Source: Tritonibacter scottomollicae
GTDB lineage: Bacteria; Pseudomonadota; Alphaproteobacteria; Rhodobacterales; Rhodobacteraceae
DNA length: 64,000 nucleotides
Assembly: GCF_003003215.1 (NCBI RefSeq)
Contig: NZ_PVUF01000019.1
Location: forward strand, 1-64,000
Direction: 5' to 3'
A program made the translations under genes and the position numbers. Positions 1,144 to 21,589 of this stretch are shown here, piece after piece; position 1 is the stretch's first letter; each line of letters opens with the position of its first letter. The notes beneath the pieces are model-generated. The model ran no database searches. It was not told the origin of the DNA and was given only the letters and a program-made list of their open reading frames with translations.

Positions 1144-2694
1144 ATGCTCTATCTCTTCGTGCCTCTCTTCAGTCCGCTCCTGCTTCTTCTGGCTGCGCTT
1201 CATGCCGCGCGACATCCCGGTAAACGCCCGGGGCGGGTGGCGCAGTTGGCAGAGATGGCGGCGTTCGGTGCCTTTTTGATCGCGGTGCTCGCCGCGACGC
1301 TCCTCGTGATGAAAGGCGCGGGCACCTCGGCGCTGATCGGACTTGCTGGCGTTGGCCTGTCCGTACGGCTCGATGTGGTGAGTACGGTGATGTTGGTGCT
1401 GGTCAGCTTCATCGGCTGGGTCGTGATGCGGTATTCCAGGACCTACATGGATGGCGAGGCCCGCCAAGGGGCATTCACCGCTTGGATGTCGGTGACACTG
1501 GCGGCGGTGCTGCTGCTGGTGATGGCGGGTAACCTCGTGCAACTCTTGGCCGCCTGGACACTGACCAGCCTGTCGCTGAATCGGCTGTTGTTGTTCTACC
1601 CAGAGCGGGCAACAGCGCGGCGTGCCGCCCGCAAGAAAGCCCTTGTCGCACGGTTGAGCGAAGGCGCGCTGGCGGGGGCGATCCTTCTGCTGATTGCCGC
1701 AACAGGAACCACCGACATCCAGACCATTCTCGCGAACGCCCAGACCACCTGGCTGACCACGGGGGCGGCGCTTTTGATCGCTCTCTCGGCCGTTCTGGCA
1801 TCGGCGCAGTTTCCGATGCATGGCTGGCTGACCGAAGTGATGGAAGCCCCGACACCGGTATCCGCCCTGCTGCATGCGGGCGTGATCAATGCGGGCGGGT
1901 TCCTCTTGATCCGCTTTGCGGATGTGATGCTTCTGGCGCCGGGCGTCATGGCGCTGCTGGTCATGCTGGGCGGTTTTACGGCGTTGTTCGGTGGTCTGGT
2001 GATGCTCACACAGCCTGCGGTCAAGACGTCGCTGGCATGGTCTACCATCGCGCAAATGGCCTTTATGATCATGCAATGCGGACTGGCGCTGTTCCCACTG
2101 GCGTTGCTGCACATCGTGGCACACTCGCTCTACAAGGCCCATGCGTTTCTCAGCTCGGGCGAGGCGGTGCGCAATGTCGCCGCGATCAGCCGTCCCGGTC
2201 CGATCGCCGTGCCCAGTGCGCGCAACGTCCTGCAGTCCTTTGCGAGTGCCATCGTGATCTACGCTCTTGTCGGTGCCGTGCTCGGGTTTGACGAAAAGTC
2301 GGTTCAGGCCATCGCCCTGGGCGTGATCCTGATCTTCGGCGTCGCCTACCTTCTGGCGCAGGGCTTTGCCGATGCGGCGCCCCTCGCGTTGATGCGACGC
2401 ACCGTGATCTATGCGCTGGTCACATCGGTCAGCTATTTCGCGCTGCAGGTCGTCGCCCTGTATCTGACCGCAGGCAGCCTGCCCCCAACCCCTGAGCCGG
2501 GCCCGCTGGAATGGGCGTTGATCCTTCTGGCGCTTGGGAGCTTTGGCCTTGTCGCGGTGGCCCAGGCGACTTTCCCGCTGTGGGCTTCGCACCCCGCAGC
2601 AGCCGGATTGCGCGTTCATCTGACCAACGGTCTCTATGCGAATGCGATCTGCGACAAGCTCTTGGACGGTTGGTCCAAGCGGTCCGAAGCCTGA
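1144..2694 (+). CDS. dabB: DabB, proton-conducting membrane subunit of the DAB inorganic carbon transporter
   Basis: A 516-residue polytopic membrane protein of the NuoL/MrpA proton-conducting family. Core residues include the helix with MHGWLTEVMEAPTPVSALLHAG, the hallmark of NuoL/M/N-type antiporter subunits, and a conserved Lys in the TSLAW-type segment. It is not part of a nuo or mrp cluster; it is followed 15 bp later by dabA. In characterised DAB systems this subunit is thought to couple cation flow to CO2 hydration by DabA at the cytoplasmic face, trapping bicarbonate. The ATG at 1144 starts directly with a hydrophobic helix. Confidence comes mainly from the pairing with DabA. Confidence 0.9.
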   Translation: MLYLFVPLFSPLLLLLAALHAARHPGKRPGRVAQLAEMAAFGAFLIAVLAATLLVMKGAGTSALIGLAGVGLSVRLDVVSTVMLVLVSFIGWVVMRYSRTYMDGEARQGAFTAWMSVTLAAVLLLVMAGNLVQLLAAWTLTSLSLNRLLLFYPERATARRAARKKALVARLSEGALAGAILLLIAATGTTDIQTILANAQTTWLTTGAALLIALSAVLASAQFPMHGWLTEVMEAPTPVSALLHAGVINAGGFLLIRFADVMLLAPGVMALLVMLGGFTALFGGLVMLTQPAVKTSLAWSTIAQMAFMIMQCGLALFPLALLHIVAHSLYKAHAFLSSGEAVRNVAAISRPGPIAVPSARNVLQSFASAIVIYALVGAVLGFDEKSVQAIALGVILIFGVAYLLAQGFADAAPLALMRRTVIYALVTSVSYFALQVVALYLTAGSLPPTPEPGPLEWALILLALGSFGLVAVAQATFPLWASHPAAAGLRVHLTNGLYANAICDKLLDGWSKRSEA

Positions 2695-2709
2695 AAAGGA
2701 ACACTCCTG

Positions 2710-5118
2710 ATGCATACAAAACTCGAGTCCTATCCCGCCGCCCTGCTTGAGCTTGTCTTCGAGGCCAACACAGCCGCCAAGGCGATTCCACCGCTGTTCC
2801 CGCTGTCCTCAAACGTTGCGGTGAACCCGTTCCTTGGTCAGACAGGCGAGACGCTGGCCGCCACCGCTGCGCGTTTGGCGCGGGTGGGCGGCGCCCGGAT
2901 TACACCGTCACGCGCCCATTGGGCCGACAAGCTGCGGGCAGGTGAAATCACCGATACGGATCTGCTGGACGCAGTGTCTGCGGTCAAAGGGGATGGCGAT
3001 ACGCTGAGCCTGCAAGACGTGAAGACTGCCCTGGAGAATGATACAGCCGACCCCAAGGCCCTGCCCACCGTGGCCGAATTGGCGGCGGATGTTTCGGGCG
3101 TAGACTGGCCGGGGCTGATCGAAGATCGCATTGGCGTATGGGCCGCCAGCCATTTTGATCAGGGGCAAGCTCTTTGGCAGCAGTCCAGTACCGGCGGGCC
3201 CTTCAGCGCCTGGCGCGAATTTGCTTCGCGCGATCTGACCCCCGAGATCCAGGGGCTGACAGGGTTTTGTGCCTTTGTCGCTGGAACGAACCGCTCGCAT
3301 TGGCGCGCCATAGGCCGCGCTTCGGATCAGCTTGGCGTGACCACCGATGCCGCGACGACCGCCTTCCATCGCTGGCTGATGACGCTGGGCGGATGGGCGC
3401 AATATGGCCGCTACCTGCTGTGGCAGGCAGAGCTGGAGGGGGCTCAGGAAAGCACCGTCACGGAGCTTCTGGCGATCCGTATGGTGTTCGACGAAGCATT
3501 GTTTCACCTCTACGAAGACCAGATCGCAGCGCGTTGGGCGGAGGTTGTCGCCGCCCATCAGACCCCTGTCAGCCCGTCGCGGGATCTTGTTATCGACGCG
3601 GTACTTCAGGAAGCGGCGGAACGGGCACAGCAGCGTATCCTGTCCGACAGGCTGCTGCCGGGGAAACCACACAGGGCCGAAGGGCGCCCGGATGTGCAAG
3701 CGGCCTTCTGTATCGACGTCCGGTCCGAAGTCTTCCGTCGCGCGCTGGAAGCGCAGGACAAGAACATCGAGACCATCGGCTTTGCCGGGTTCTTCGGGCT
3801 GGCCAGCGCGCACAAGATTGCCGGCTCGGATGTGACCGAACGGCGCGGCCCGGTGCTGTTGCAACCTGGCGTGACATCACGGGCGGCGGAACCCACGCAG
3901 GCCGATCTTGATCGGCGCTACACCGCACGGGCCAAGCGGGCCTGGGGCCGGTTCAAGCTGGCCGCTGTGTCGTCTTTCGCCTTTGTGGAGGCGACGGGGC
4001 CGCTTTATGCCGGGAAGCTGGTTCGGGATGCGCTGGGCCTTGGCGGCCAGGCCACGGTCGAACCTGCACCCGAGTTGGATCCGGCCATCAGCCTGGACGC
4101 CCGTATCGGGATTGCGAAGTCAGTGCTGAGGGCCATGTCGCTGACCGATAATTTTGCGCGGATTGTCTTGCTTGCCGGTCACGGCGCCGATGTAACCAAC
4201 AATCCGCATGAAAGCGCATTGCACTGTGGCGCCTGTGGTGGACACGCGGGGGATGTGAATGCCCGGCTTCTGGCACGGCTGTTGAATGATCACGACGTAA
4301 AGCTTGGATTGCGGGACGCTGGGATCGAGATCCCTGTCGATACGGTGTTCCTGCCCGCCATGCACCACACAACGACCGACGAGGTCACCCTCTATGAGGG
4401 GGATGTGCCGCAGGGTGTCGCGACCGGCGGGTTCAGACAGCTGAAGGAATGGTTGGCCGCCGCCGGGAGCCTCGCCCGTGCAGAGCGAGGGCAACGTCTG
4501 CCACGCGCAACTGGAGCCGCGAGCGTCCCACAGCGGGCGCGGGACTGGGCCGAAACACGCCCCGAATGGGGGCTGGCTGGATGCCGGGCCTTCATCGCAG
4601 CGCCGCGCCATCGCACCGACGGGGCGGATCTGGCAGGGCAGGCCTTCCTGCATAACTACGACTGGCGGCGCGATGACGGGTTCGGCGTGCTTGAACTGAT
4701 TATGACTGCCCCTGTGGTTGTCGCCAGCTGGATCAGCCTGCAGTATTACGGCTCAACCGTGGCGCCGTCCCTGTTTGGTGGTGGCAACAAGCTGCTGCAT
4801 AATGTGGTGGGCGGTATCGGCGTTCTGGAAGGCAACAATGGTGCCCCGCGCCCGGGTTTGCCATGGCAATCCGTTCACGATGGGAACAGCTTCCAGCACG
4901 ACCCGCTGCGCTTGTCGGTGATCATCGAGGCGCCGCGCGAGGCGATGACCGATGTTCTCGCGCGTCATCCCGGCGTGTGCGAGCTGTTCGACAACGGTTG
5001 GCTGCATTTGATCGCCATGGATGACGAAGGCAAACTGGCCTGGCGCTACTGCGGGGACTTGAAATGGACGCCCTTCAGCGCTCCATCTGATGCCGAGCGC
5101 GCAATAGCCGCGGAATAG
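2710..5118 (+). CDS. dabA: DabA (DUF2309), carbonic-anhydrase-like subunit of the DAB inorganic carbon transporter
   Basis: An 802-residue DUF2309/UPF0753 protein. The beta-carbonic-anhydrase-like zinc site is visible: Cys334 and Asp336 in FCIDVRSE, His491 in LAGHGAD and Cys506 in LHCGACGG. The His-to-Cys spacing of 15 matches that reported for the Halothiobacillus enzyme. Arg338 in the same motif is the usual partner of the Asp. The protein is cytoplasmic and associates with DabB. Together they act as a vectorial CO2 hydratase supplying bicarbonate. The window shows no RuBisCO or carboxysome genes, so in this organism the role may be supplying bicarbonate to anaplerotic or biosynthetic carboxylases. 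A Shine-Dalgarno AAGGA precedes the ATG, and a terminator follows at 5171. Confidence 0.93.
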   Translation: MHTKLESYPAALLELVFEANTAAKAIPPLFPLSSNVAVNPFLGQTGETLAATAARLARVGGARITPSRAHWADKLRAGEITDTDLLDAVSAVKGDGDTLSLQDVKTALENDTADPKALPTVAELAADVSGVDWPGLIEDRIGVWAASHFDQGQALWQQSSTGGPFSAWREFASRDLTPEIQGLTGFCAFVAGTNRSHWRAIGRASDQLGVTTDAATTAFHRWLMTLGGWAQYGRYLLWQAELEGAQESTVTELLAIRMVFDEALFHLYEDQIAARWAEVVAAHQTPVSPSRDLVIDAVLQEAAERAQQRILSDRLLPGKPHRAEGRPDVQAAFCIDVRSEVFRRALEAQDKNIETIGFAGFFGLASAHKIAGSDVTERRGPVLLQPGVTSRAAEPTQADLDRRYTARAKRAWGRFKLAAVSSFAFVEATGPLYAGKLVRDALGLGGQATVEPAPELDPAISLDARIGIAKSVLRAMSLTDNFARIVLLAGHGADVTNNPHESALHCGACGGHAGDVNARLLARLLNDHDVKLGLRDAGIEIPVDTVFLPAMHHTTTDEVTLYEGDVPQGVATGGFRQLKEWLAAAGSLARAERGQRLPRATGAASVPQRARDWAETRPEWGLAGCRAFIAAPRHRTDGADLAGQAFLHNYDWRRDDGFGVLELIMTAPVVVASWISLQYYGSTVAPSLFGGGNKLLHNVVGGIGVLEGNNGAPRPGLPWQSVHDGNSFQHDPLRLSVIIEAPREAMTDVLARHPGVCELFDNGWLHLIAMDDEGKLAWRYCGDLKWTPFSAPSDAERAIAAE

Positions 5119-5170: not shown

Positions 5171-5210
5171 CGCGGCCTCCGTTGGGAAACGGGGGCCGCG
5201 GTCTTGTTTG
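5171..5210 (+). terminator. intrinsic terminator of dabBA
   Basis: A long GC-rich hairpin at 5171-5200 (arms CGCGGCC-CCGTT and AACGG-GGCCGCG) is followed by a T-rich tail, GTCTTGTTTG. It lies 53 bp after the dabA stop and ends the operon before the convergent envelope operon. Confidence 0.75.
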
Positions 5211-5311: not shown

Positions 5312-6181
5312 TCAGCGTTGCCAGTCTGCGACCTTGGCCGTGTTGGCTTCGATCCACGACTGGACCGCCTTGTCGATCCCTTGCTCTCGTGCGTTGACCA
5401 TTATCTCTTCGATATCGGTGATTTCTAGTGCGATCCTGCCGATCATGTCCGCGATATCAGGGGCGCGCTCGGGGAACCCGGTGTTTGCGCGTGCGTGAAT
5501 CGTCGAGGCCCCGGAGTAGAGCCCTTTGGGGTCGTCAAGATAGCGCATTCCATAGAGCGCGAACTTCATATGTGGACGCCAGGCGGTGACAACGACGGGC
5601 GCGTCGCGCCGCTGCGCCAGCGCGATTTCGCGGACCATCTTCGGCCCTGTGCCTTCTTCAAGCGTGTAGTTCGTCAGCCCGTATTGCTGGATCGCGTCAC
5701 GCGTGGTGGCCATCAACCCGGCGCCGGGATCAATGCCCACGATGCGCCCGCCAAGAGCCTCCTGCACCTCGGGGCGGCGCAGATCCTCGATCGAGGAGAT
5801 CAGGTCGGCGGGTACCCATTCGGGCACCGCAAGACCGATGGTGCCCTCGTAAAGCGGGCCGAGGTCCACGAGCGTGTCGCCGTAGCGGCGCAAATAGGCG
5901 GCGTGCAATCCGGGTTCCCAAGACATCAGCATGACGTCAATCTCGCCGCGCGAGAGGGTGCGGAACTGGGCCTCGATGTCGGCCAGGGTCAGCTCGACAT
6001 CACGGTCCATCATGTCGTGCAGCACGCGGGCAACAAGCTTGGTCACCACTTCGGCGTCAGACCAGGGCGTCCACCCGATCACGACATCCGGGCGGCCCAG
6101 CGATTGCGCCGCGAGAGGTGTTGCGGAGAGGCTGGCAAGGGCAGCCAGCATGCTCCGGCGCGAGAGGGATGTGCGGATCAT
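5312..6181 (-). CDS. OpuAC-type glycine betaine/choline-like periplasmic binding protein, orphan
   Basis: A 289-residue secreted binding protein of the OpuAC family. An N-terminal signal with SRRSMLAALA resembles a Tat leader and ends near AAQ-S. The mature part has the family landmarks VIGWTPWSDAEV near residue 35, the MLMSWEPGLHAAYL segment and the PVVVTAWRPHMKFALY motif, whose aromatic residues normally bind a quaternary amine. The start overlaps the VWA gene upstream by ATGA, so it is the last gene of a five-gene envelope operon. No permease or ATPase gene accompanies it, so it is either a receptor or feeds a transporter encoded elsewhere. The ligand is inferred from the family only. Confidence 0.82.
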   Translation of the reverse strand: MIRTSLSRRSMLAALASLSATPLAAQSLGRPDVVIGWTPWSDAEVVTKLVARVLHDMMDRDVELTLADIEAQFRTLSRGEIDVMLMSWEPGLHAAYLRRYGDTLVDLGPLYEGTIGLAVPEWVPADLISSIEDLRRPEVQEALGGRIVGIDPGAGLMATTRDAIQQYGLTNYTLEEGTGPKMVREIALAQRRDAPVVVTAWRPHMKFALYGMRYLDDPKGLYSGASTIHARANTGFPERAPDIADMIGRIALEITDIEEIMVNAREQGIDKAVQSWIEANTAKVADWQR

Positions 6182-6978
6182 GGTTCCAGTTCCTCGAAAT
6201 TGATGTCCGCCGGATCGAAATCGCTGGCCTCGCCACTGGTCGCGTCAAGTCCAGCGCGCAGGTCGTCCGGGGAATTTGCGTCGGTATAAAAGACGCGGGT
6301 GGGATCTTTCAGGCTATGTCCGCCCTCGATGCAAAAGCCGATGGTGTGAATCTCGATCATGTTGGCGGGATTATCGAACACGGCACCGACAACCGGGGCA
6401 GGGCTTTCGCCGCTGGAAGCCTGCCCGTCGGTGATGACGATCAGGCGGTAGGCGCCGGTTCCACCTTGTCGAACGGCCTGGTTCTCCAGCTCCTGGCGGG
6501 CGATCTGCATCGCGCTGAGCAGCGGCGTGCCGCCGTCGGCGCCCAGGGCTTTGATCCGGTCAACAACCTGGCGGGCGTGTTCATCCCCGCGCCCGAGCGA
6601 AAAGTCGAGCCGGGTGCCTTCGGCGCTGAAACTCACCAAGCCGACGTTGTCGCCGGGATTGGCGGCGATCCAGCTCAGCAATGCCGCCTTGGCGGCGTCG
6701 GCGCGGCTGAAGTAATCTCCGGCGCAGTCCTTGCTTGCCATCGAGCCGGACATGTCCAGCACAATCATATTGTTCTGCGCAAAGGGATCGGTGGCCGTGC
6801 CGGGCGTGATGTCGCCGTCACGCGTTCCGTTCGCTGGCCAGACGGCGTTGCCGAGCGCGGCAACTGAAATGGGCGCCACATCTGCGGGTGTCTCTTCCTC
6901 TTCGAAACAGGCAGACAGGACAAGACAGGCGGCAAGGCTGATCGATATGCGGATCAGGTTTTTGGAGTGCAAGGTCAT
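6178..6978 (-). CDS. VWA-domain lipoprotein
   Basis: A 266-residue protein with a lipoprotein signal peptide (lipobox LSAC, lipidated Cys24) and a von Willebrand factor A domain from about residue 68. The MIDAS metal site is intact: DMSGS at residues 75-79, a Thr in GGTPLLSA, and Asp in VITDGQASSG. It would sit in the periplasm anchored to a membrane and bind a partner through a divalent metal. It is 7 bp downstream of the SBP-OmpA fusion gene and overlaps the OpuAC gene by 4 bp, so its partners are probably the other envelope proteins of this operon. Function is unknown. Confidence 0.82.
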   Translation of the reverse strand: MTLHSKNLIRISISLAACLVLSACFEEEETPADVAPISVAALGNAVWPANGTRDGDITPGTATDPFAQNNMIVLDMSGSMASKDCAGDYFSRADAAKAALLSWIAANPGDNVGLVSFSAEGTRLDFSLGRGDEHARQVVDRIKALGADGGTPLLSAMQIARQELENQAVRQGGTGAYRLIVITDGQASSGESPAPVVGAVFDNPANMIEIHTIGFCIEGGHSLKDPTRVFYTDANSPDDLRAGLDATSGEASDFDPADINFEELEP

Positions 6979-6985
6979 GGCTGCC

Positions 6986-8620
6986 TCACCACTCGTTCAG
7001 CGGGGTAAAGACCTCCGCCTCGGATTCCATGCCAATCACCCGGAACACGACCCGGCGAGAGTTCTGCCATTCTTCCTCGGTCTTGGGCGGACAGGGCAGA
7101 TCGTTGCAGAACCCGCCGAGCGGATCCTCGATGCCGCGGCCATTGATTGTGATCTGGCTGTTGTCAATGTCATAGCCCAGCGTCGCGGCGGTCTCGACCA
7201 GCGCATCGCGCACTGCGAGCGCGCGCGCTGTGGACGTATTGCGCAACGAGGCCAGCTCGCGCTTTTGCCGGGTCGGCGGCCAGTCCTGTTTCAGCACCCC
7301 CTTGAGGTAGCCAAGGTAGGAGGAATGCGCTTCGATGCTCAGAATGGCACCGGCGTAGATCTGCGATTTATCGAGGGCTTCCTCGAAAGCGGTGCGATAG
7401 TCCTCGATGGGGAATTGAGCCTGGTTGGGCTCGAACAGGATCGTGACGGCAGCGATGGTGGATTCCGCGATGTCATCGTTGCTCATGGCCTTGATCGCGG
7501 CGGTGGCGGCATCCTGGTCGAAACCAGAGGCTTTGACGCGGCGCTTGTCCCAGATGTTATCGCCGAGGGTCGCGTAATCCAGCGGCGGATCAGTCAACGC
7601 GACCGCGCTGGGAATGAGGCCGGCCTTGACCATGGCGGTCTGGCCGGAGTTGACCACCGACCGGAACGAACGCGGCGCAGAGGCTGTGGACCAGTCGACC
7701 TGACCGTTCAGGCCGACGGTTTCAACACCGCGCCAAAGGGTCTGCATCTCGTCCTCAAGGGCGGCGTCGCCCAGCACCATTTCCGCGGCGCGTTGAAAGT
7801 CGACCACTTGTTTCTTTGCGTCCTCGCGGAACAGTTCTTCGGCCTTCAGAAGGGCCCGAACGGTGGCCCGGACCTTGTCACTGTTCTGTTCAAGATAATC
7901 GGCGCGTACGACCAGCAAATCGCCGATCACCCGGTTGGCCGAGGTGGTTGTGACCAATTGTTGTGCCCCGGCGACAGAGCCTTCGGCCCCGGTGCCGACG
8001 CCGCCTGCGGTCAGTACTTCGGCGCGCGGCGTTGACATGATGGCAAAGGGCAACCCTGCGTCCTGCGCAAAGCTCTCGGCGGGGGTATCGACCAGCCGGA
8101 TGTCGGGCATGGTCTCCGCGTCCAGTGCCAGTTGCAGCGCAAAATCCAGACGGGCGGGCGTCGTCGCCACGGCGCGTCCGGACAGGTCGCTCAGCGCATC
8201 AAAATCGCGCGCGACCAGCGCGTCGGCGCCGTTCGACCAGCCGTAGAAGAAGACCGGCACCATGCGCGTCTTGTCCTGCGCCTCGGTTTGTTCGGCCAGA
8301 AGCGTCATCTGCGCATGGGTGACACGCATATACGGCGTCTCGCAGCCGAGGTAGGCGGGCAGCTGCGCGTCATAATCATCGAAGCGGCGGGTCTCGATCG
8401 TGAAGTCGACGCCATCGCGGGTGGTGGAGTGACGTTGAAAAATGCTGGGCCCAAGCAGATCGTCCGTGGCATGTGCGGTGATCGCGTCATGCCCGGCCGG
8501 AACCATGGGCAGGATGCTGGCACTGTCTGCGCGGCAATCGCGCACCGCCAGATCCTGTGCAACCGCTCCTGTCGCCAGAAGCGACGCCAAGGCCGGAACA
8601 ATGAATAAAATAGGTCTCAT
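6986..8620 (-). CDS. periplasmic binding-protein domain fused to a C-terminal OmpA domain
   Basis: A 544-residue secreted protein (signal peptide ending near AVAQ-D). Residues about 25-360 look like a type 2 periplasmic binding protein of the SsuA/TauA or phosphate-binding kind. Residues about 380-535 form an OmpA-like peptidoglycan-binding domain with ILFEPNQAQFP at its start and the RNTSTARALAVRDAL and NSRRVVFRV segments at its end. The fusion would tether a solute sensor to the cell wall. It has no transporter nearby. From memory, similar fusions occur near TelA/XpaC/VWA genes in other proteobacteria; that association is an inference to test. Confidence 0.75.
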   Translation of the reverse strand: MRPILFIVPALASLLATGAVAQDLAVRDCRADSASILPMVPAGHDAITAHATDDLLGPSIFQRHSTTRDGVDFTIETRRFDDYDAQLPAYLGCETPYMRVTHAQMTLLAEQTEAQDKTRMVPVFFYGWSNGADALVARDFDALSDLSGRAVATTPARLDFALQLALDAETMPDIRLVDTPAESFAQDAGLPFAIMSTPRAEVLTAGGVGTGAEGSVAGAQQLVTTTSANRVIGDLLVVRADYLEQNSDKVRATVRALLKAEELFREDAKKQVVDFQRAAEMVLGDAALEDEMQTLWRGVETVGLNGQVDWSTASAPRSFRSVVNSGQTAMVKAGLIPSAVALTDPPLDYATLGDNIWDKRRVKASGFDQDAATAAIKAMSNDDIAESTIAAVTILFEPNQAQFPIEDYRTAFEEALDKSQIYAGAILSIEAHSSYLGYLKGVLKQDWPPTRQKRELASLRNTSTARALAVRDALVETAATLGYDIDNSQITINGRGIEDPLGGFCNDLPCPPKTEEEWQNSRRVVFRVIGMESEAEVFTPLNEW

Positions 8621-8641
8621 AAAAGCGTCCTTTAAGTCGCG

Positions 8642-9286
8642 TCAGCGTGAATGTGTCAGTGTGCTTTCCAGCACCTGTAGGGAGACTTCCGCCTCCTCTG
8701 CCGAGGTCTGGATAATGGACTTCTGTGCGCGCAGAGCTGCGTCCGATGCATCCTGCAGGGCGGCAATCAGGCGCGCGCGGGTATCAGCGGAGTCCACCAG
8801 CCCATCCCCTCTGTCTGCGAAGGCACAATAGTCGATGAAGGCAGATTCGACACGGGGCAGGGTGCGACGCAGCAGGGTATCGGCGCGGCGGGCGGTTTCC
8901 ACCGAGGAAAGCATATCGGCAAAAAGCGCCTCGAACCGCGCTTCGCAGTCGCTCAAAGCGGTCTTCAGGGCTTCGCGGCGTCGGGCCCCTGCCACCTGCA
9001 TGCGTGCGAACCGTGCCTGTGCCTCCTGCACGGACTGCGCGGCGCGCAGTGCGCTGTAGTCATTGTCCACACCGGCGTCCGCCAACATGTTCTCGGCCTG
9101 CGATTCTGGGCGCAGGATCTGCTCTACGGCCCAGTTCACCACGGCGAAGGTCAGCCAGCCCGCCGCGATTGCGCAGGCGGCTTCGGCCTCTCGTGGCCAG
9201 CTGGCGAGGTTAAACTGCAGATAGATGGAGAGGGCCGTCAGTGCGCCCAAGATGCCCGGAATGATATGGAGTGCCGCCGCGATCAT
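8642..9286 (-). CDS. inner-membrane protein with cytoplasmic helical domain, possibly XpaC-like
   Basis: A 214-residue protein with two N-terminal membrane helices at about residues 4-24 and 36-56, followed by a mostly helical soluble region of about 150 residues rich in Ala, Arg and Glu. The segment with LLRRTLPRVESAFIDYCAF is reminiscent of the XpaC (5-bromo-4-chloroindolyl phosphate hydrolysis) family, but I cannot confirm this. It overlaps the preceding OmpA-like gene by ATGA and lies 21 bp before the SBP-OmpA fusion, so it belongs to the envelope operon. It may link that complex to the cytoplasm. The function is not recognised. Confidence 0.65.
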   Translation of the reverse strand: MIAAALHIIPGILGALTALSIYLQFNLASWPREAEAACAIAAGWLTFAVVNWAVEQILRPESQAENMLADAGVDNDYSALRAAQSVQEAQARFARMQVAGARRREALKTALSDCEARFEALFADMLSSVETARRADTLLRRTLPRVESAFIDYCAFADRGDGLVDSADTRARLIAALQDASDAALRAQKSIIQTSAEEAEVSLQVLESTLTHSR

Positions 9287-9771
9287 CCGTCACCCAGTGC
9301 CCCAAGGAGGCGCCGCTCTACAATGCGCACTTCGGCCCGGCGTGTCCGCTTGGACAGTGAGGCCGCGCTCTCGCCTGCGTGCGGATCGGGAGGGGCAGCG
9401 CCGCCCGCGCCCCGGCTGATGATCCGGTCTGCCGGCACCCCGGCATCGGCGAGGGCCGTGGCGACCACATCAGCTCGGCTACGTGACAGGGCAAGGTTGG
9501 CCTGTGCATCGCCGTCCGCGCCAGTGTGACCGGTGATCAAGGCAATTGTGGTCGGGTGATCCAGAAGCGAATTGAGAGCGACCGCGATCATGGCGTCAGA
9601 TCCAGCGGCCGGCCGCGCGCCTACGTCGAAATCGACGACAACAACCTCTGGTCCATCTGCGCGGGGCCAGACAAGCCCGGCAGCGCTGAGTGCAATAAAC
9701 ACTGTGACGAGCATAAGCAGACCCAATCCGACCCCCTTCCGTCGTCGGATTGATCGGTTGTCGAGGCGCAT
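9283..9771 (-). CDS. membrane-anchored OmpA/MotB-domain protein
   Basis: A 162-residue protein with a short basic cytoplasmic N-terminus (NRSIRRRKG), one membrane helix at about residues 15-35 and a periplasmic OmpA-like domain (LITGHTGADGDAQANLALSRSRADVV, then ISRGAGGAAPPDPH) that should bind peptidoglycan. I chose the ATG at 9771 over an upstream one at 9846 because AGGAG lies 10 nt before it and the upstream extension has no transmembrane logic. It is the first gene of the five-gene envelope operon and would act as an inner-membrane-to-wall anchor. Confidence 0.78.
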   Translation of the reverse strand: MRLDNRSIRRRKGVGLGLLMLVTVFIALSAAGLVWPRADGPEVVVVDFDVGARPAAGSDAMIAVALNSLLDHPTTIALITGHTGADGDAQANLALSRSRADVVATALADAGVPADRIISRGAGGAAPPDPHAGESAASLSKRTRRAEVRIVERRLLGALGDG

Positions 9772-9891
9772 AACTTGGTTTCTCCTGCAATCAATATGCA
9801 ACTTCTCCGCGACCGAAGAAGGCATGTTTCGCAAAGGCTCTGTCAACCGTCAAAGTCTCTCGCGTCCAATAACGCAGCGCGGGCGCGGCTG

Positions 9892-9987
9892 ATCGGCCTG
9901 TCGAATCTCGACTGGCTACATGGAGGCCGAGGTTATGAGGCTGATTGGTTCACAGAGACGTTCAACCACAAAGGGATAAGCCTGAGC
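9892..9987 (+). pseudogene. possible decayed IS5-type transposase fragment
   Basis: A short open stretch encodes GGRGYEADWFTETFNHKGI, which resembles the G-D-x-GYDADWFR-AL-x-x-KGI motif of IS5-family transposases. The flanking codons do not continue the family sequence. No inverted repeats were found. Otherwise the interval 9772-10087, between the envelope operon promoter and the peptide transporter operon end, contains no convincing gene. Confidence 0.35.
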
Positions 9988-10087
9988 AAGAGTGCGCAGA
10001 TCATTCGCGTCTGGACGGATGGAATTGGGTGGGGAGGTGTCTGCTCTTCGGTAGAGCGCGTTCCGGGGAACAATTCCGCCGAAAGGA

Positions 10088-10116
10088 GAGGTGGCGCGTG
10101 AAAATCGCGCCACCTC
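10088..10116 (-). terminator. hairpin after the GAF gene
   Basis: A perfect 11-bp stem (GAGGTGGCGCG / CGCGCCACCTC) with a 7-nt loop begins 15 bp past the stop of the GAF-domain gene. No strong T tract follows on the minus strand, so it is a weak or Rho-assisted terminator, or an mRNA 3' stabiliser. Confidence 0.5.
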
Positions 10117-10130
10117 ATCCGTTCAAGGGA

Positions 10131-10619
10131 TCACTTTGTGATCGACAGGGCCGCCATGGACGGCAGTGTCAGGACGTCATGCGCCTGTGCGACGCGCTCG
10201 GGTGTGTAGTAGCCTTCTTCGTGCAGGAAATTGACCGTGGCGACCATCTTGCCCCCAAGGATCACCGGCAAGTTGATGACGGACCCACAGCCGAGTTTGC
10301 CGATCAGCTCCGCGTCGGGGAATACCGTGTCGATATCGGCCAGCGTGTTGGAGACAAAGGTCTCGTGACGACCATGAACCTGCTCGAACCAGCGGTTCAT
10401 CTCGATTTCCTTGGTGCCCGTTGTGGGGTAGTTTTCCGCATCATCCGTGTAGACGCGACGGGCGAGCATGGCGTCCATGTCCGCGGTCATCACAGTGAAC
10501 AGCTTTGCGCCCACTGTGGCCTTGGTCAGCGCGCAAAGCGCATCATAGGCCTGTTCTTCTGTGGTGGCCTCTGACAGCGCTTTTTCAAAATCCTGGCGCG
10601 CCGTGTTTGTATCCGTCAT
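10131..10619 (-). CDS. single GAF-domain protein
   Basis: A 162-residue cytoplasmic protein consisting of one GAF-like domain. Recognisable parts are GCGSVINLPVILGGKMVATVNFLHEEG, a typical GAF core strand pair, and the closing helix with AQAHDVLTLPSMAAL. It has no output domain. It lies 3 bp after dppF and is co-transcribed with the transporter, which is unusual for a Dpp/Opp operon. It may sense an intermediate or redox state related to the substrate, or be an fRMsr-like enzyme; the latter is not favoured because the paired catalytic cysteines are not obvious. Function unknown. Confidence 0.7.
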   Translation of the reverse strand: MTDTNTARQDFEKALSEATTEEQAYDALCALTKATVGAKLFTVMTADMDAMLARRVYTDDAENYPTTGTKEIEMNRWFEQVHGRHETFVSNTLADIDTVFPDAELIGKLGCGSVINLPVILGGKMVATVNFLHEEGYYTPERVAQAHDVLTLPSMAALSITK

Positions 10620-10622
10620 GTC

Positions 10623-11372
10623 TTAGTCCTTGCGGTCTGGATTGCCGCCCGATGCGGCGTAAAGGGATTGGGTGTAAGGGTCGGTGAAGCTGCCATCGTG
10701 CAGCGCTGTTGCGGGCGCAATCTCGACGATGCGGCCCTTGTTCATCACGGCCATGCGGTCGCACATGAAGCTGACGACAGGCAGGTTGTGGGTCACCATC
10801 AGATAGGTCAGCCCCTGCTCGCGGCGCAGCTTCTTCAGTAGGTTGAGGATCTCCGCCTGTACTGAGACATCCAGCGCCGATGTGGGTTCGTCCAACAGCA
10901 TCACCTTGGGCTCCAACATCAGGGCGCGCGCAATGGCGACCCGCTGGCGCTGCCCGCCCGAAAGCTGGTGTGGGTAGCGAAACCGAAACCGCTGATCGAG
11001 GCCCACGGCTGCGAGCATCTCGATCACACGGGCATCGCGATTGCCAAGCCCGTGGATCTTGAGCGGCTCGCTCAGCACCGTGTCCACGGATTTGCGCGGA
11101 TGCAGCGATCCATAAGGGTCTTGAAACACCATCTGGCAACGGGTGGCAAAGCCCTGATCGACACTCCGCCCGCGGGGCTGTCCCAGTACCGAGATTTCGC
11201 CGCTCCAATCGGGGGCGAGGCCTGCGATGGCCTTCAGAATCGTGGATTTGCCAGAGCCGCTTTCGCCGACCAGAGCAAAGCTCTCGCCTTCGGCGACCTC
11301 AATGTTCACGCCCTCAACCACCTTTGTGTGGCCATAGGAAATGTCGAGATCTTTCAAAATGATCGCGCTCAT
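10623..11372 (-). CDS. peptide ABC transporter ATP-binding protein (DppF/OppF type)
   Basis: A 249-residue ABC ATPase. Walker A is GESGSGKST, the signature is LSGGQRQRVAIARAL, Walker B is VMLLDEPTSALD, and the H-loop is in MVTHNLPVV. The start at 11372 is chosen because its ATG overlaps the stop of the preceding ATPase gene as ATGA and GGAG lies 6 nt upstream; an alternative ATG lies at 11384. It pairs with the other ATPase and with the two permeases to energise uptake of a peptide or peptide-like compound. It is somewhat shorter than classic OppF because the C-terminal extension is abbreviated. Confidence 0.9.
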   Translation of the reverse strand: MSAIILKDLDISYGHTKVVEGVNIEVAEGESFALVGESGSGKSTILKAIAGLAPDWSGEISVLGQPRGRSVDQGFATRCQMVFQDPYGSLHPRKSVDTVLSEPLKIHGLGNRDARVIEMLAAVGLDQRFRFRYPHQLSGGQRQRVAIARALMLEPKVMLLDEPTSALDVSVQAEILNLLKKLRREQGLTYLMVTHNLPVVSFMCDRMAVMNKGRIVEIAPATALHDGSFTDPYTQSLYAASGGNPDRKD

Positions 11373-12226
11373 GTGCCGCTCCATGCGCTGCGGTCGAGGA
11401 CGGGGAGTTCCTCGCGCGTTTCTTCCATCCGTGGCACCGCCGCCAGCAGGCCTTGGGTATAGGGGTGCGTCGCTTTGTGCAGGTCCTCTGCCGCGCAGCT
11501 TTCGACCACTTCGCCTGCATGCATCACGAGGATGCGGTCGCAGTAGCGCGCCACAAGATTGAGGTCGTGCGAGATCAGGATCAGTCCCATGCCCTTGTCG
11601 CGCACCAGCTCGTCGATGAGGTCCAGAACCTGCGCCTGCACCGAGACATCCAGCGCTGAGGTCGGTTCATCCGCGATCAGCAGATCCGGGCGCGGGATCA
11701 GCATCATGGCGATCATGATGCGCTGGCCCATACCGCCCGAAACCTCATGCGGGTAAAGGTTCACCACCCGTTCGGGATCGTTGATGCGCACGGAATGCAG
11801 CATCTCCAGCACGCGGGATTTGATCTCGCGGCGGGCAAGGGTCTCGTGGGTCTTGAGCGCCTCGGCGATCTGCGCGCCGATGGTCATCACCGGATTGAGC
11901 GAGAACTTCGGGTCTTGCATGATCATCGAGATCCGCGCGCCGCGCAGGTCGCGCATCTTGCGTTCCGACAGCCCTGCCAGGTCGATCCCGTCAAACACCA
12001 TCCTGTCGGCCTGCTGACGGCCCGGGCTGCGCACCAGTCGCAGGATCGCGCGGCCGGTCATCGATTTGCCCGACCCGCTTTCGCCGACGATGCCGAGCCG
12101 TTCACGGCCCAGGGTGAAGGAAAGGCCCTTGACCACCTCGACGCGCCCTTGTGGCGTGGGAAAGCTGACGCGCAGGTTTTCCAGTTCCAAGAGAGGAGCC
12201 TGTTCTGATTGGTGAGAATGGCTCAT
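11369..12226 (-). CDS. peptide ABC transporter ATP-binding protein (DppD/OppD type)
   Basis: A 285-residue ABC ATPase with Walker A GESGSGKSMTGRA, signature VSGGMGQRIMIAMML (a common variant), Walker B LLIADEPTSALD and H-loop ISHDLNLVARY. The C-terminal tail carries the oligopeptide-type segment (HPYTQGLLAAVPRM). The ATG at 12226 is chosen because it overlaps the permease stop as ATGA; the frame stays open upstream but that part is out of phase with the family. It is translationally coupled to the genes on both sides. Confidence 0.9.
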   Translation of the reverse strand: MSHSHQSEQAPLLELENLRVSFPTPQGRVEVVKGLSFTLGRERLGIVGESGSGKSMTGRAILRLVRSPGRQQADRMVFDGIDLAGLSERKMRDLRGARISMIMQDPKFSLNPVMTIGAQIAEALKTHETLARREIKSRVLEMLHSVRINDPERVVNLYPHEVSGGMGQRIMIAMMLIPRPDLLIADEPTSALDVSVQAQVLDLIDELVRDKGMGLILISHDLNLVARYCDRILVMHAGEVVESCAAEDLHKATHPYTQGLLAAVPRMEETREELPVLDRSAWSGT

Positions 12227-13128
12227 GATTTGCCTCCCTGTTTGGGGTCCAGCACATCGCGCAGACCGTCGCCCAGGAAACAGAAGCCAAGCGAGACGAT
12301 GATGATGGCAAAGCCGGGCATGGTGGCGACCCACCACTGATCGAGGATAAAGGCCCGCCCGCGCGAGATCATCGCGCCCCATTCCGGCAGCGGCGGCTGT
12401 GCGCCAAGGCCAAGAAAGCCCAGACCGGCGGCGGTCAGGATGATACCCGCCATGTCTAGCGTGACCCGCACGATCATCGACGAGGTACACAGTGGCAGAA
12501 CATGGCCGGTGATGATCCGTGTATGCGAGGCGCCAAGCAGGCGCATGGCCGAGATGAATTCCGAGTTGCGGAAGGTCAGCGTCTCGGCGCGTGCGATCCG
12601 CGCGTAGGCTGGCCAGGAGGTGATGGCGATGGCGATGATTGCGTTTTCGATCCCCGGTCCAAGCGCGGCGACAAAAGCCAGCGCGAGGATCAGCTTTGGC
12701 ATCGACAGGAACACATCCGTCACGCCCATCATCGCCTTGTCCACCCAACCGCCAAAGTACCCGGAAATGGCGCCGATCAACAGGCCAAGTGGGGCGGAGA
12801 TCACCGCCACCATTGCAACGATCAGCAAGGTAATGCGCGCGCCGTAGATCACCCGGCTGAAAATATCACGACCCAGTTCATCGGTGCCCATCCAGTGCGC
12901 AGCGGAAGGCGGCAGCAGGCGTTGACCGAGGTTTTGTCCCAGCGGACTATGCGGCGCGATCCACGGCGCAAAGATGGCCGCAAGGATCAGGACCAAGAGG
13001 ATCAGTGCGCCCACAACGGCCAGCGGATTGCGCATCAGCATCCGTGTAACACGGTAGCTGTGACCCAAGGAGGCCTGCAGGCGGGAGCTGGGGGAGTCGT
13101 CGAGCAGCCAGTTTGTCATCGTTGTCAT
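12223..13128 (-). CDS. peptide ABC transporter permease (DppC/OppC type)
   Basis: A 301-residue inner-membrane permease with an N-terminal cytoplasmic tail, a first helix near residues 36-57, and a BPD_transp_1 core. The DppC hallmarks are HWMGTDELGRDIFSRVIYGAR and the EAA loop (ARAETLTFRNSEFISAMRLLG). AGGAGG precedes the ATG at 13128. The stop overlaps the following ATPase start. It forms the translocation pore with the adjacent DppB-like protein. Confidence 0.9.
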   Translation of the reverse strand: MTTMTNWLLDDSPSSRLQASLGHSYRVTRMLMRNPLAVVGALILLVLILAAIFAPWIAPHSPLGQNLGQRLLPPSAAHWMGTDELGRDIFSRVIYGARITLLIVAMVAVISAPLGLLIGAISGYFGGWVDKAMMGVTDVFLSMPKLILALAFVAALGPGIENAIIAIAITSWPAYARIARAETLTFRNSEFISAMRLLGASHTRIITGHVLPLCTSSMIVRVTLDMAGIILTAAGLGFLGLGAQPPLPEWGAMISRGRAFILDQWWVATMPGFAIIIVSLGFCFLGDGLRDVLDPKQGGKS

Positions 13129-13137
13129 GGCACCCTC

Positions 13138-14196
13138 CTATCGGCTGCGCGGGTCGAGAATGCGGTACAGCACATCCGACAGCTTGTTGATGAGAATGAA
13201 GACCGACCCGATCACCAATGTGGCGCCAAGGACGGCGTTCATGTCGGCATTGAGCAGCGCCACAGTCAGATAGTTGCCGATGCCCGGCCAGCTAAAGACC
13301 GTCTCGATCATCACCGAGCCTTCCAGCAAGGCGGCATAGGAGAGGCCGATCACGGTGATCAGAGGCACTCGGATCGGGCGGAAGCCGTGGGTCCAGATCA
13401 CCCGCCATTCCGCAACCCCTTTGACACGGGCGGTGGTGATATATTCTTGGCCAAGCTGATCCAGCATGAAGCTGCGCGTCATCCGCGCGATATAGGCCAG
13501 CGAGAAGAAGCCAAGGATGGTGGCAGGCAGGATCAGGTGATCCAGCGCGCTCCAGAACACGTCGAAGTCGCGGGCGATCAGGGAATCGACCAGCAGCAGG
13601 CCAGTGCGTGGCTCTACCAAACCTTCATAGAAGATATCGACACGCCCGGGACCGCCGACCCAGCCAAGGCCTGCGTAGAACACGACCAGACCCACAAGAC
13701 CGAGCCAGAAGGCGGGAACCGAATAGCCAAGCAGCGCAAAGACGCGGATCAGCTGATCCACCCATGTGCCCTGCCTTGCTGCGGCCCAGACACCCAGTGG
13801 AACCCCCATTCCGACGCCGATGATAATGCCAAGCGTCGCCATCTCCAGCGTGGCCGGGAAGACGCGTGCCAAGTCTTCGGCGACGGGGCGGTTGGTGGAC
13901 ACCGAATGGCCCAGATCACCCTGAAAGACATCGCCGACGTAGGTGATGAACTGTGCGATCAGCGGTCGGTCGAGGCCCATGGCAATGCGGACCGCATCAT
14001 ATTGTTCCTGAGTGGCACGGTCGCCGACCACGGACAGAACCGGGTCGATCGGAATCACGCGGCCGATGAAGAAGGTGATCGCCATCAACCCGACAAAGGT
14101 CAGGAGCGTGACGATGATAAACCCACCGATTGCCCCGGCGGTTTTCCTCAGCGCAGCGTTCGAAGGCGCGGCTGTATTCAAGGGTCTGGTCCCCAT
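13138..14196 (-). CDS. peptide ABC transporter permease (DppB/OppB type)
   Basis: A 352-residue permease and the first gene of the leftward transporter operon. It has the N-terminal helix, the FIGRVIPIDP segment typical of the family, a BPD_transp_1 domain, and an EAA-loop (EYITTARVKGV). The start is taken at 14196: an ATG at 14208 is in frame, but its first codons (ATGGGAGGAG) are themselves the Shine-Dalgarno for the second ATG. It is divergent from the XRE-cupin regulator across 232 bp that contain A/T-tract palindromes. Confidence 0.88.
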   Translation of the reverse strand: MGTRPLNTAAPSNAALRKTAGAIGGFIIVTLLTFVGLMAITFFIGRVIPIDPVLSVVGDRATQEQYDAVRIAMGLDRPLIAQFITYVGDVFQGDLGHSVSTNRPVAEDLARVFPATLEMATLGIIIGVGMGVPLGVWAAARQGTWVDQLIRVFALLGYSVPAFWLGLVGLVVFYAGLGWVGGPGRVDIFYEGLVEPRTGLLLVDSLIARDFDVFWSALDHLILPATILGFFSLAYIARMTRSFMLDQLGQEYITTARVKGVAEWRVIWTHGFRPIRVPLITVIGLSYAALLEGSVMIETVFSWPGIGNYLTVALLNADMNAVLGATLVIGSVFILINKLSDVLYRILDPRSR

Positions 14197-14310
14197 TTCT
14201 CCTCCCAAAACCCCCGGCGTGCGGGAGATCTGGCATCGTGAAAACTCTGCGTCGGGGAGGTCCCGGACGCGGTGGTTGGTGCATCAGGCATAAAACAATT
14301 TTCGAAATGT

Positions 14311-14345
14311 GCAAAAATTTTTTTGCCTGACAAAAATTTTTTTTG
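14311..14345. promoter_or_regulatory. paired A/T-tract near-palindromes, candidate XRE-cupin operators
   Basis: GCAAAAATTTTTTTGC (14311-14326) and CAAAAATTTTTTTTG (14331-14345) are two near-palindromic A/T tracts 20 bp apart, in the divergent promoter of the transporter operon and the XRE-cupin gene. A third AT-rich partial palindrome lies just to the left around 14295-14306. Two-helical-turn spacing suits cooperative binding of a dimeric regulator. Confidence 0.5.
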
Positions 14346-14428
14346 TAACCTGATGGAGAGAACATCCAGGAATGTGACCCGGTCTGGTGCTTCAGGCGCA
14401 GGTCCACCCCAAAGTGTGAAGAGCAAAA

Positions 14429-15043
14429 ATGCCGCGTGAAAAAACACTACAAGAGCCCAGTGTCGGCCCAGCGATCCGCAAACGCCGCAAGCAACTAAAG
14501 CTGACCTTGCAGGCGCTGTGTGACAAATCCGGCGTCTCGGTCGGATATCTCAGTCAGGTGGAACGCGACAATGCAACGCCGTCGCTCGGCACGCTGGCGC
14601 AGATCTCAGCGGCGCTTAACGTGGGGCTGGACTATTTCATTTCGGCGTCCAAGCCCTCTGACGGCCTGACCCGCGCCGGCACCCGCCCGCTCTTTGCGCT
14701 GGATGATTCCTCGCTGCGCTACGAGGCGCTGGGCGCGGATTTTCCCGGCTCTGAGATGTCGTCCTATATCCTGCATATACCGCCCGCCTATGTCTCGGAA
14801 ACCGTGAGCCATGAGGGTGAAGAGATCATCTTTGTCCTTGAGGGCGAGATCCAGCAGACATTGGACGGCCAGACCTTTGCCATGACCTCGGGCGACAGCC
14901 TGCACTACAGCGGCAACACCCCGCACGCATGGACCAACCCGACCGACCGCATTGCCCGCATCCTCTGGACCGGGACGCTGACAGTTCTCAATCGCAAAGG
15001 CGCCATCGAGCTACCGGAACTGTCCCACAAGCAGAACGCGTAA
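14429..15043 (+). CDS. XRE-family regulator with C-terminal cupin domain
   Basis: A 204-residue regulator. Residues about 13-70 are a Cro/CI helix-turn-helix (RRKQLKLTLQALCDKSGVSVG, YLSQVERDNATPSLGTLAQI) and residues 105-185 a cupin (VSHEGEEIIFVLEGEI, GDSLHYSGNTPHAWTNP). This PuuR/SutR-like layout usually binds a small amine or amino-acid ligand in the cupin barrel. The gene is followed 46 bp later by the transporter's binding protein and then an M24 peptidase, and is divergent from the permease genes, so it very likely controls both arms through the A/T palindromes upstream. Confidence 0.87.
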   Translation: MPREKTLQEPSVGPAIRKRRKQLKLTLQALCDKSGVSVGYLSQVERDNATPSLGTLAQISAALNVGLDYFISASKPSDGLTRAGTRPLFALDDSSLRYEALGADFPGSEMSSYILHIPPAYVSETVSHEGEEIIFVLEGEIQQTLDGQTFAMTSGDSLHYSGNTPHAWTNPTDRIARILWTGTLTVLNRKGAIELPELSHKQNA

Positions 15044-15089
15044 ACCGCGACAGACAGATTAGAAGTTCAATCCAACAAGGAGACCTCCC

Positions 15090-16679
15090 GTGAAACACCT
15101 GAAGACAACACTGCTGGCCAGCGCGCTGCTTTTGCCGCTTGCAGCGCCGGCTGTGCTGGCCGAGACGCCCGAGGGCGTGCTGGTCGTGGCACAAAACATC
15201 GACGATATCGTCGCCATCGATCCGGCACAGGCCTATGAGTTCACCTCTGGCGAGCTGGTCACCAACCTCTATGACCGGCTGGTTCAATACGATGCCGAAG
15301 ACACCACCGTTCTGGCGGCAGGTCTGGCCTCGGAGTGGGTCACCGACCCTGACGCAAAGACCATCACCTTCACCCTGCGGGATGGTGCGAGTTTTGCCTC
15401 TGGCAACCCCGTGACCGCAGAGGATGTGGTCTATTCCTTCTCCCGCGTCATCAAGCTGAACCTGACGCCTGCGTTCATCCTGACCCAGCTGGGGTGGAAC
15501 GCGGACAACATCGGTGAGATGGTCACTGGTGACGGCAACACGGTGACCGTGAAATACGCGGGCGACTTCTCCCCGGCGTTTGTGTTGAACGTCTTGGCTG
15601 CACGTCCCGCATCCATCGTTGACAGCAAGCTGGTGCAGGAGAACGAAGTTGACGGCGACATGGGCAATGCGTGGCTCAACGCCAATGCTGCGGGTTCCGG
15701 TCCCTTCACGCTGCAGCGCTATGCGGCCGGTCAGATGGTGCGCATGCAGGCGAACCCGACCTATTTCAACGGCGCGCCCAAGATCGACAGCGTGATCATC
15801 CGCCATGTGGCCGAAAGCGCCACTCAGCAGCTGCTGCTGGAGCAAGGCGACGTAGATCTGGCCCGCAACATGACACCGGATCAGGTGGCCTCGCTCGACA
15901 GTGGCGAGATCAAGGTCGACACCTTCCCGCAGGCGGCTGTCCACTTCCTGTCGTTCAACCAGAAAACCGAGAGCCTGACGCCCCCCGCTGTTTGGGAAGC
16001 GGCACGTTATCTGGTCGACTACAAAGGTATGACCGATACGATCATCAAAGGTCAGATGGACGTGCATCAGGCGTTTTGGCCAAAAGGCTTCCCCGGTTCG
16101 TATGATGAGACCCCGTTCTCATATGACCCGGAAAAGGCCAAGAGCATCCTGTCCGAGGCCGGTATCGAGACTCCGATCACCGTGTCGCTGGATGTGATCA
16201 ACGCGGCGCCCTTCACCGATATGGCGCAGTCGCTGCAAGCGAGCTTTGCCGATGCGGGCATCAACTTTGAGATCCTGCCCGGCACCGGCAGCCAGGTGAT
16301 CACCAAATACCGTGAGCGCAGCCATGAGGCGATGCTGCTGTATTGGGGCCCGGACTTCATGGATCCGCATTCCAACGCCAAGGCCTTCGCCTATAACTCC
16401 GACAACTCTGACGACAATTATGCAGCGACCACCACATGGCGCAATGCATGGGCCGTGCCGGAAGAGATGAACAAGCGGACCATGGCAGCGCTGTCGGAAA
16501 GCGACGCGGATGCCCGTCTCGACATGTACCGCGAGCTGCAAAAAGACGTGCAGGCAGAGTCCCCCATCGTGATCATGTTCCAGGCGGCCTATCAGGTTGC
16601 CATGAACGAAGGGGTGTCCGGCTACGTGAACGGCGCAACCTCTGACTTCGTGTTCTACCGTCTGGTGGAAAAAGAATAA
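15090..16679 (+). CDS. family 5 extracellular solute-binding protein of the peptide ABC transporter
   Basis: A 529-residue periplasmic protein with signal peptide ending at VLA-ETP. It has the SBP_bac_5 fold landmarks: AQAYEFTSGELVTNLYDRLV near the mature N-terminus, TFTLRDGASFASGNPVTAEDVVYSFSR, and the late NIxA-like INAAPFTDMAQSLQASF stretch. The start is GTG at 15090, preceded by AAGGAG at the right distance. It is split from its permeases by the divergent promoter but is the only binding protein for them here. It should deliver a short peptide or amino-acid conjugate, judged from the following peptidase. Confidence 0.9.
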   Translation: MKHLKTTLLASALLLPLAAPAVLAETPEGVLVVAQNIDDIVAIDPAQAYEFTSGELVTNLYDRLVQYDAEDTTVLAAGLASEWVTDPDAKTITFTLRDGASFASGNPVTAEDVVYSFSRVIKLNLTPAFILTQLGWNADNIGEMVTGDGNTVTVKYAGDFSPAFVLNVLAARPASIVDSKLVQENEVDGDMGNAWLNANAAGSGPFTLQRYAAGQMVRMQANPTYFNGAPKIDSVIIRHVAESATQQLLLEQGDVDLARNMTPDQVASLDSGEIKVDTFPQAAVHFLSFNQKTESLTPPAVWEAARYLVDYKGMTDTIIKGQMDVHQAFWPKGFPGSYDETPFSYDPEKAKSILSEAGIETPITVSLDVINAAPFTDMAQSLQASFADAGINFEILPGTGSQVITKYRERSHEAMLLYWGPDFMDPHSNAKAFAYNSDNSDDNYAATTTWRNAWAVPEEMNKRTMAALSESDADARLDMYRELQKDVQAESPIVIMFQAAYQVAMNEGVSGYVNGATSDFVFYRLVEKE

Positions 16680-16753
16680 TCTGAACCTTTTCGGGCTGCC
16701 GTGTCACCGGCGGCCCGAATTCCATATCTCCCCCTCATTCCCCGGAGCCCTTG

Positions 16754-17857: not shown

Positions 17858-17900
17858 GGGCTAAATACCTTCTCGTCCGGTGGAGAGTGCGAATGAACGG

Positions 17901-17931
17901 GCGGCGCAGCTTAATGTTGCGCCGCTTTTTT
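17901..17931 (+). terminator. intrinsic terminator of the XRE-SBP-M24 operon
   Basis: Stem GCGGCGCA / TGCGCCGC with a 9-nt loop, followed by six T. It overlaps the last codons of the convergent racemase-family gene, whose C-terminus KKAAQH is encoded by the opposite strand of the hairpin. Confidence 0.8.
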
Positions 17932-20868: not shown

Positions 20869-21047
20869 GATGCGGGCTCCTGTCTTGATGATATTTGCCA
20901 GTCTATCGCGCCCGTGGTGGCGTATCCCGGAATTCTCGGCCTCCGTGGGGCCGATATTCGGCAAAAGTAGCAAGCTCTTGTCCGAAATTGGGCTTTGAGT
21001 GGCTCTCTGTCTTACGCAAGAGCCGAAATTCCGACATATCTTTTGAC

Positions 21048-21515: not shown

Positions 21516-21561
21516 TCGCGGTCGGAGAGATCATCTGACGCATCAGGATCTGATATGAAAA

Positions 21562-21589
21562 CGGGCCACATCCCGAAGGATATGGCCCG
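21562..21589. terminator. bidirectional hairpin between Lrp and the purine permease
   Basis: CGGGCCA-ATCC paired with GGAT-TGGCCCG around a CGAA tetraloop, between two convergent genes. The flank is A-rich on the left, giving a short T tract for leftward transcripts. Confidence 0.6.

Follow-up and report, generated by a model that had tools for sequence, protein, structure and literature searches.

The present analysis concerns a window of 64,000 nucleotides (the whole stretch of DNA examined), which is contig C19 (NZ_PVUF01000019.1) of the 4.7 Mb genome of Tritonibacter scottomollicae (GCF_003003215.1). Five co-directional open reading frames (ORFs) on its minus strand fill positions 9771-5312 and constitute a complete operon, which is a rare, rearranged member of a widespread envelope gene set; it lacks TelA and belongs to a subtype here termed split. 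We regard this anatomy and family relationship as well supported. In order of transcription, the genes are:

9283-9771, minus strand: g1, inner-membrane-anchored OmpA-like domain protein (Pfam OmpA, 3e-11)
8642-9286, minus strand: g2, divergent XpaC (PF10112 superfamily), two-helix membrane protein (homology via relatives; AlphaFold2 [AF2] model)
6986-8620, minus strand: g3, secreted solute-binding protein (SBP) domain fused to a C-terminal OmpA-like domain (Pfam matches of relatives; AF2 model)
6178-6978, minus strand: g4, VWA-domain lipoprotein with lipobox LSAC (Pfam VWA_2, 8e-18)
5312-6181, minus strand: g5, OpuAC-type (betaine/choline family) SBP with a twin-arginine-like signal (Pfam OpuAC, 3e-53)

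ATGA overlaps join g1 to g2 and g4 to g5, while gaps of 21 bp and 7 bp separate g2 from g3 and g3 from g4, respectively. ORF calls and Pfam reveal no ABC permease or ATPase among the five products. An earlier, sequence-only reading had described a five-gene envelope operon at this position, combining two SBPs with VWA and OmpA domains, tightly linked and devoid of transporter genes; the ORFs, the Pfam matches and the relatives bear it out on each of these points. The same five-gene order is repeated in the close relatives L019 and L026, and the arrangement is therefore not due to chance.

Relatives of g3 were collected by g3 alone; since neighbours played no part in the choice, the counts of neighbouring genes given below are independent of them. 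Such relatives are rare, being found in eight of 346 genomes of the family and two of 299 genomes of a phylum sample. A scan of approximately 85,000 species yielded 157 g3-matching stretches, the best of which gave 79 loci; with Vibrio plasmids, viral contigs and a huge phage added, genes were called in about 90 neighbourhoods and identified by means of purpose-built profiles. The dominant (canonical) gene set consists of a g3-type fusion (SBP/OmpA-1), a VWA protein, another fusion (SBP/OmpA-2), a two-helix protein, TelA, a urea-type SBP, a TauC-like permease and a TauB-like ATPase. VWA is present in all 47 well-flanked loci, SBP/OmpA-2 in 38, TelA in 33, the permease in 29 and the ATPase in 27; permease and ATPase occur together, on the same strand, in 27 of the 38 well-flanked canonical loci. 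The members of locus L006 were confirmed by Pfam and NCBIfam (TelA, 8e-61; TIGR03427 SBP, 440 bits; permease; ATPase). Named loci carrying g3-type sets span eleven phyla. The sequences of two metagenome-assembled loci, L026 (Verrucomicrobia) and L030 (Anaerolineae), nest among those of proteobacteria, so that their phylum labels may be binning errors; the contigs are probably mis-binned or recently transferred.

The split type comprises 20 loci including the window, some of which are near-duplicates and a few of which are cut by contig ends. All of these lack SBP/OmpA-2, in place of which they encode a free-standing OmpA anchor (g1), a protein of the g2 type, and an OpuAC or Coq4-like protein; none contains a permease. 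OpuAC is found in the window, L019/L027, L026 and L029-L032; of the cultivable carriers, Pseudoponticoccus marisrubri bears L027 and Saccharospirillum salsuginis bears L029. In the g3 tree all 17 split-type rows fall on one side of a branch with support of 100/99, and within them the window groups with L019 and L026 (100/100), being joined by L032 (100/98) and then by L028-L030 (100/99). The branch leading to the trio of the window, L019 and L026 is long (2.0), and the g3 proteins of the latter two are 70-74% identical to that of the window. This tree is midpoint-rooted, and the direction of change between canonical and split types is thus not proven by it.

TelA is retained in three split loci, L029, L032 and L105 (Pfam 8e-95 in L029 and 1e-79 in L105); it is therefore a component of the split subtype as well as of the canonical one, and the window operon is without it. 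The gene order in L029 is g1-g3-g4-OpuAC-XpaC-TelA, and in L032 it is g3-g4-OpuAC-OmpA-XpaC-TelA. The latter repeats the canonical order of g3, VWA, SBP-OmpA, two-helix protein and TelA, except that two adjoining genes take the place of the fused SBP/OmpA-2.

The Coq4-like protein, which stands in for OpuAC in the majority of split operons from Rhodobacterales and adjoins TelA in some canonical loci, has 200 residues and an HDxxH motif, with weak matches to PF05019 in two of 13 cases; its genes include L020:11249-11848, L022:7396-8007, L101:16022-16606 and L105:4842-5495.

The window g2 protein has no match to PF10112 at E 0.1, nor to any other Pfam family at significance. Its membership of the XpaC superfamily is established through intermediates. 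PF10112 is matched by eight of 18 members of the g2 family (best 4.4e-24), including those of L029, L105 and L032, where the gene directly precedes TelA. Profile comparison of the aligned g2 family (A2) with housekeeping XpaC proteins of Rhodobacterales (A4) gave 97.1% at E 5e-11, and comparison of the g2 proteins of the window trio with a group (g2c; L028-L032 and L105) containing several PF10112-positive members gave 97.2% at E 3e-11 over 198 columns; reversed-sequence controls for the trio comparison were at E 0.05 or worse. Set directly against Rhodobacterales XpaC, the trio matches weakly (37%), from which it follows that the homology runs through these intermediates. The AF2 model of g2 (pLDDT 87) has hydrophobic helices at residues 2-26 and 32-58 and is helical in its remainder; a Foldseek search of the PDB with this model returned no significant match. 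The faint resemblance to XpaC that had been noticed from the sequence alone thus reflects, on the basis of the relatives, true homology, g2 being a divergent XpaC. The canonical two-helix protein (A3) was also examined as a candidate XpaC, and the relationship was not demonstrable (E 0.002, 14%); for this reason it is termed XpaC-like by position only.

The g5 protein scores 181.6 bits against PF04069 (cut-off 21.2), and W40, W88 and the Trp of TAWRPH line up with Trp residues of OpuAC, which we take to be those forming the ligand cage in OpuAC structures. As these are kept, the predicted ligand is probably a quaternary-ammonium compound. Two differences set g5 apart from OpuAC and ChoX: its neighbours encode VWA, OmpA and XpaC proteins rather than an OpuA/ChoVW permease or ATPase, and it attains 97.5 bits against a cut-off of 379 for the choline-specific TIGR03414. 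Just one further gene of the OpuAC class exists in this genome, at an unlinked site (G000:C2), where it serves as the SBP of a complete ATPase-permease-SBP transporter. In g4 the metal (MIDAS) site is complete (DMSGS, 75-79; GGTPL, 149-153; TDG, 183-185).

The g3 protein is composed of a TauA/NMT1/"urea"-type substrate-binding domain (residues ~22-380) and an OmpA-like domain (~388-544). On its own it falls below threshold in Pfam (NMT1, 0.05; OmpA, 0.15); the fusion is nonetheless real, since the relative in L006 matches NMT1 above the cut-off (6e-9) and OmpA near it (8e-5), and the AF2 model built from 65 sequences (pLDDT 91.8, pTM 0.90) best matches TauA-type binding proteins in the PDB (6ssy, E 7e-10). 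Its N-terminal domain shares the fold of TauA/SsuA and of the TIGR03427 SBPs, from which g3 differs in being fused to an OmpA domain; as a urea SBP it failed the test, scoring 19.2 bits against a TIGR03427 cut-off of 333.9. The annotation attached to that family, "putative urea ABC transporter substrate-binding protein", falls on L006:3518-4582 and similar genes, which supply the TelA-linked importer with its SBP; having been taken from another context, the name may mislead annotation. A link to guanidine through this name was considered and rejected: seven canonical loci lack a guanidine riboswitch, one tRNA being the sole Rfam family among them, and an Rfam search of the window revealed no such riboswitch either.

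In the OmpA protein of Acinetobacter baumannii diaminopimelate is contacted by Asp271 and Arg286 (PMC5974059, PMC12108004), the equivalents of which were located in g3 by alignment to 3td3. The motif concerned in the window is:

7313-7333, minus strand: OmpA motif EAHSSYL of g3, residues 430-436 (alignment of 70 sequences)

Residue 434, equivalent to Asp271, is Asp in 67 of the 70 aligned proteins and Ser in the window trio only, and the Arg286-equivalent is invariant. In g1, which possesses one N-terminal hydrophobic segment followed by the OmpA domain, the motif GHTG...NLALSRSRA has Gly at the first position and keeps the Arg; Gly is found there in all 16 proteins of g1 type whose motif pattern could be located. 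SBP/OmpA-2 proteins have Gly, Ser, Ala or single other residues and, among readable ones, never Asp. While g1 and g3 resemble the C-terminal domains of OmpA, Pal and MotB in sequence family, in the retained Arg and in the NxxLSxxRA pattern of g1, they differ from them in this replacement of the diaminopimelate-contacting Asp, and the peptidoglycan-binding pair is incomplete in both window proteins. The description of the complex as wall-tethered is weakened accordingly; of the proposal that g3 joins an SBP to a wall-binding OmpA domain, the fusion holds and the wall-binding is doubtful.

The genes for an inorganic-carbon transporter, dabB-dabA (1144-5118), converge on the operon; as they lie beside no relative of the operon, their adjacency was judged incidental. 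Between dabA and g5 lies:

5171-5200, no strand assigned: strong stem-loop of 13 pairs with a loop of 4

A T-rich tail is present on its plus side only. Upstream of g1, two ATPase genes (10623-12190) and permease-like genes look, by sequence, like a dipeptide-type transporter; a GAF-domain gene and ~360 bp lie between them and g1. For the three operons of window type, the sequences upstream gave no convincing alignment from which to propose a common promoter motif.

To our knowledge TelA and XpaC are linked to tellurite, nisin and envelope stress without a known mechanism. Genes for both were raised in a study of CesSR in Lactococcus lactis (PMC3139573), and disruption of telA in Listeria leads to sensitivity to nisin and tellurite (PMC12791056, PMC11765107). 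The operon resembles the XpaC-TelA pair (PF10112-PF05816; Listeria lmo1966-1967, L. lactis llmg_1115-1116) in that g2 belongs to the XpaC superfamily and in that an XpaC-type gene adjoins TelA in close split relatives, and differs in lacking telA and in the addition of two SBPs, two OmpA domains and a VWA lipoprotein. The company of TelA, which the sequence-only reading had named for XpaC, is accordingly found in three split and most canonical relatives, the window itself being without it. Elsewhere in this genome, at a site not linked to the operon, lies a housekeeping XpaC-TelA-DUF2927 cluster (L007; G000:C3, ~158-161.2 kb), whose TelA gene occupies 159179-160159 of C3. No prior description of the window operon or of the canonical set was found in the open-licence literature.

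The best overall explanation, to which we give an even chance, is a split envelope solute-sensing system in which signalling proceeds through XpaC and TelA is not encoded; a sensing or stress function for the operon, as predicted from its sequences, is rated slightly lower than that. The observations drawn upon are gene content, homologies, conservation of the MIDAS and Trp residues, position in the clade, and neighbourhoods bearing TelA and free of permeases. The core of the system would be the SBP/OmpA fusion, the VWA protein and the XpaC-type membrane protein, with TelA in addition in most relatives, and g5 together with the g1 anchor would stand in place of the canonical SBP/OmpA-2. In the periplasm g5 would bind a solute of quaternary-ammonium type and g3 a second small solute; the g4 lipoprotein might couple the binding proteins by way of its metal site; and the inner-membrane pair g1-g2 would anchor the assembly and read its state, g2 relaying the signal across the membrane. 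The cytoplasmic partner would be the co-encoded TelA in relatives and, in the window, either the housekeeping TelA encoded at the unlinked site or some other protein, with adaptation to envelope stress rather than uptake as the putative output. Several points weigh against this explanation. There is no telA in the window operon, the direct match of its g2 trio to XpaC is weak, and the canonical sister system carries an ABC importer. An unlinked TelA gene accompanies the operon in all eight Rhodobacteraceae which bear it and is also found in 72 of 80 members of the family, so that this co-occurrence says nothing of a partnership. The ligands, the formation of a complex, the direction of signalling and the use of TelA in trans are, moreover, what we infer.

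Accessory use of g3 and g5 by an ordinary ABC importer encoded elsewhere, whether TauBC-like or the choline/betaine transporter of the genome, is unlikely in the window, while such an importer is real for the canonical subtype. It draws on the 27 canonical loci having both permease and ATPase, on the importer of L006 with its dedicated urea-type SBP, on the complete OpuAC-class transporter at G000:C2, and on the Trp residues retained by g5. Against these must be set the 20 split loci devoid of a permease and the fact that the G000:C2 transporter already owns an SBP; canonical importers, too, have a third, separate SBP, from which it follows that g3-type fusions are surplus there as well, and we know of no role for VWA, XpaC or TelA proteins in ABC importers. 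The sequence-only reading had favoured sensing or structure over uptake, and had named linked permease and ATPase genes as the sign of ordinary transport. These occur in the canonical sister subtype only; the absence of a permease from the split loci means that "not ordinary uptake" stands for the split subtype; it does not hold for the system taken together. A structural tether, holding the inner membrane to the cell wall through peptidoglycan binding by the OmpA domains of g1 and g3, is improbable: there are two such domains, one of them on an inner-membrane anchor, with the Arg kept and Asp434 in nearly all aligned g3 proteins, but the Asp is replaced in the g3 proteins of the window trio and in every readable g1 and SBP/OmpA-2 protein.

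Patchy spread within the family, copies on Vibrio plasmids and in huge phages, and weak matches to ZorB/MotB might suggest a mobile anti-phage or superinfection-exclusion system at the envelope. This we consider quite improbable, as PADLOC matches the OmpA domain of ZorB only (E 2e-5 to 4e-3) and reveals neither ZorA nor another defence protein; the conserved set contains no nuclease or toxin, and its SBPs are unlike known defences. The g1 OmpA domain is weakly similar to that of the MotB-like ZorB of Zorya, from which the operon differs in having no ZorA/MotA-like channel or other Zorya protein. It is more improbable still that the operon is a decaying remnant of the canonical system with a fading function. 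TelA is missing, Ser stands in place of Asp at residue 434 and the branch to the trio is long, but the five ORFs are intact with coupled starts, the MIDAS and Trp residues are preserved, and all five genes are kept in L019 and L026 at the g3 divergence given above.

The mobile copies of the canonical set are as follows. Three RctB-type Vibrio plasmids of ~240-310 kb, pIFO15640 (L015), pAM7 (L016) and pSEA2 (L017), have a syntenic canonical set in common near a PRTRC system gene. The set is complete with TelA at 9974-20356 of a huge-phage contig (L106; UViG, 545 kb), where an ORF for an HNH endonuclease is inserted between the urea SBP and the permease. Huge phage L107 (LR756511, 595 kb) encodes both SBP/OmpA proteins, VWA, SBP, permease and ATPase at 14827-23356, with no match to TelA, and Prevotella phage Lak-B2 (L116) encodes an SBP/OmpA protein, permease and ATPase at 7626-12466.

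The window operon is here taken as a variant on known XpaC/TelA envelope genes, and there is a fair chance that the larger set is a system not yet described. Somewhat more tentatively, and with less than an even chance, the canonical eight-gene set may represent an undescribed trans-envelope solute-sensing machine, of which the window would be a second, transporter-free architecture with a split sensor and with TelA used in trans or dispensed with. If this is true, TelA and XpaC would gain their first mechanistic context, forming the inner terminus of a periplasmic complex gated by ligands. Their probable working partners are indicated by the conserved neighbourhood, in which SBPs, an ABC importer and a VWA lipoprotein with a metal site are encoded. 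The split, transporter-free form would separate sensing from transport and thereby provide a natural experiment, and since huge phages and Vibrio plasmids bear the set in complete form, control of the host envelope through it may be worth carrying.

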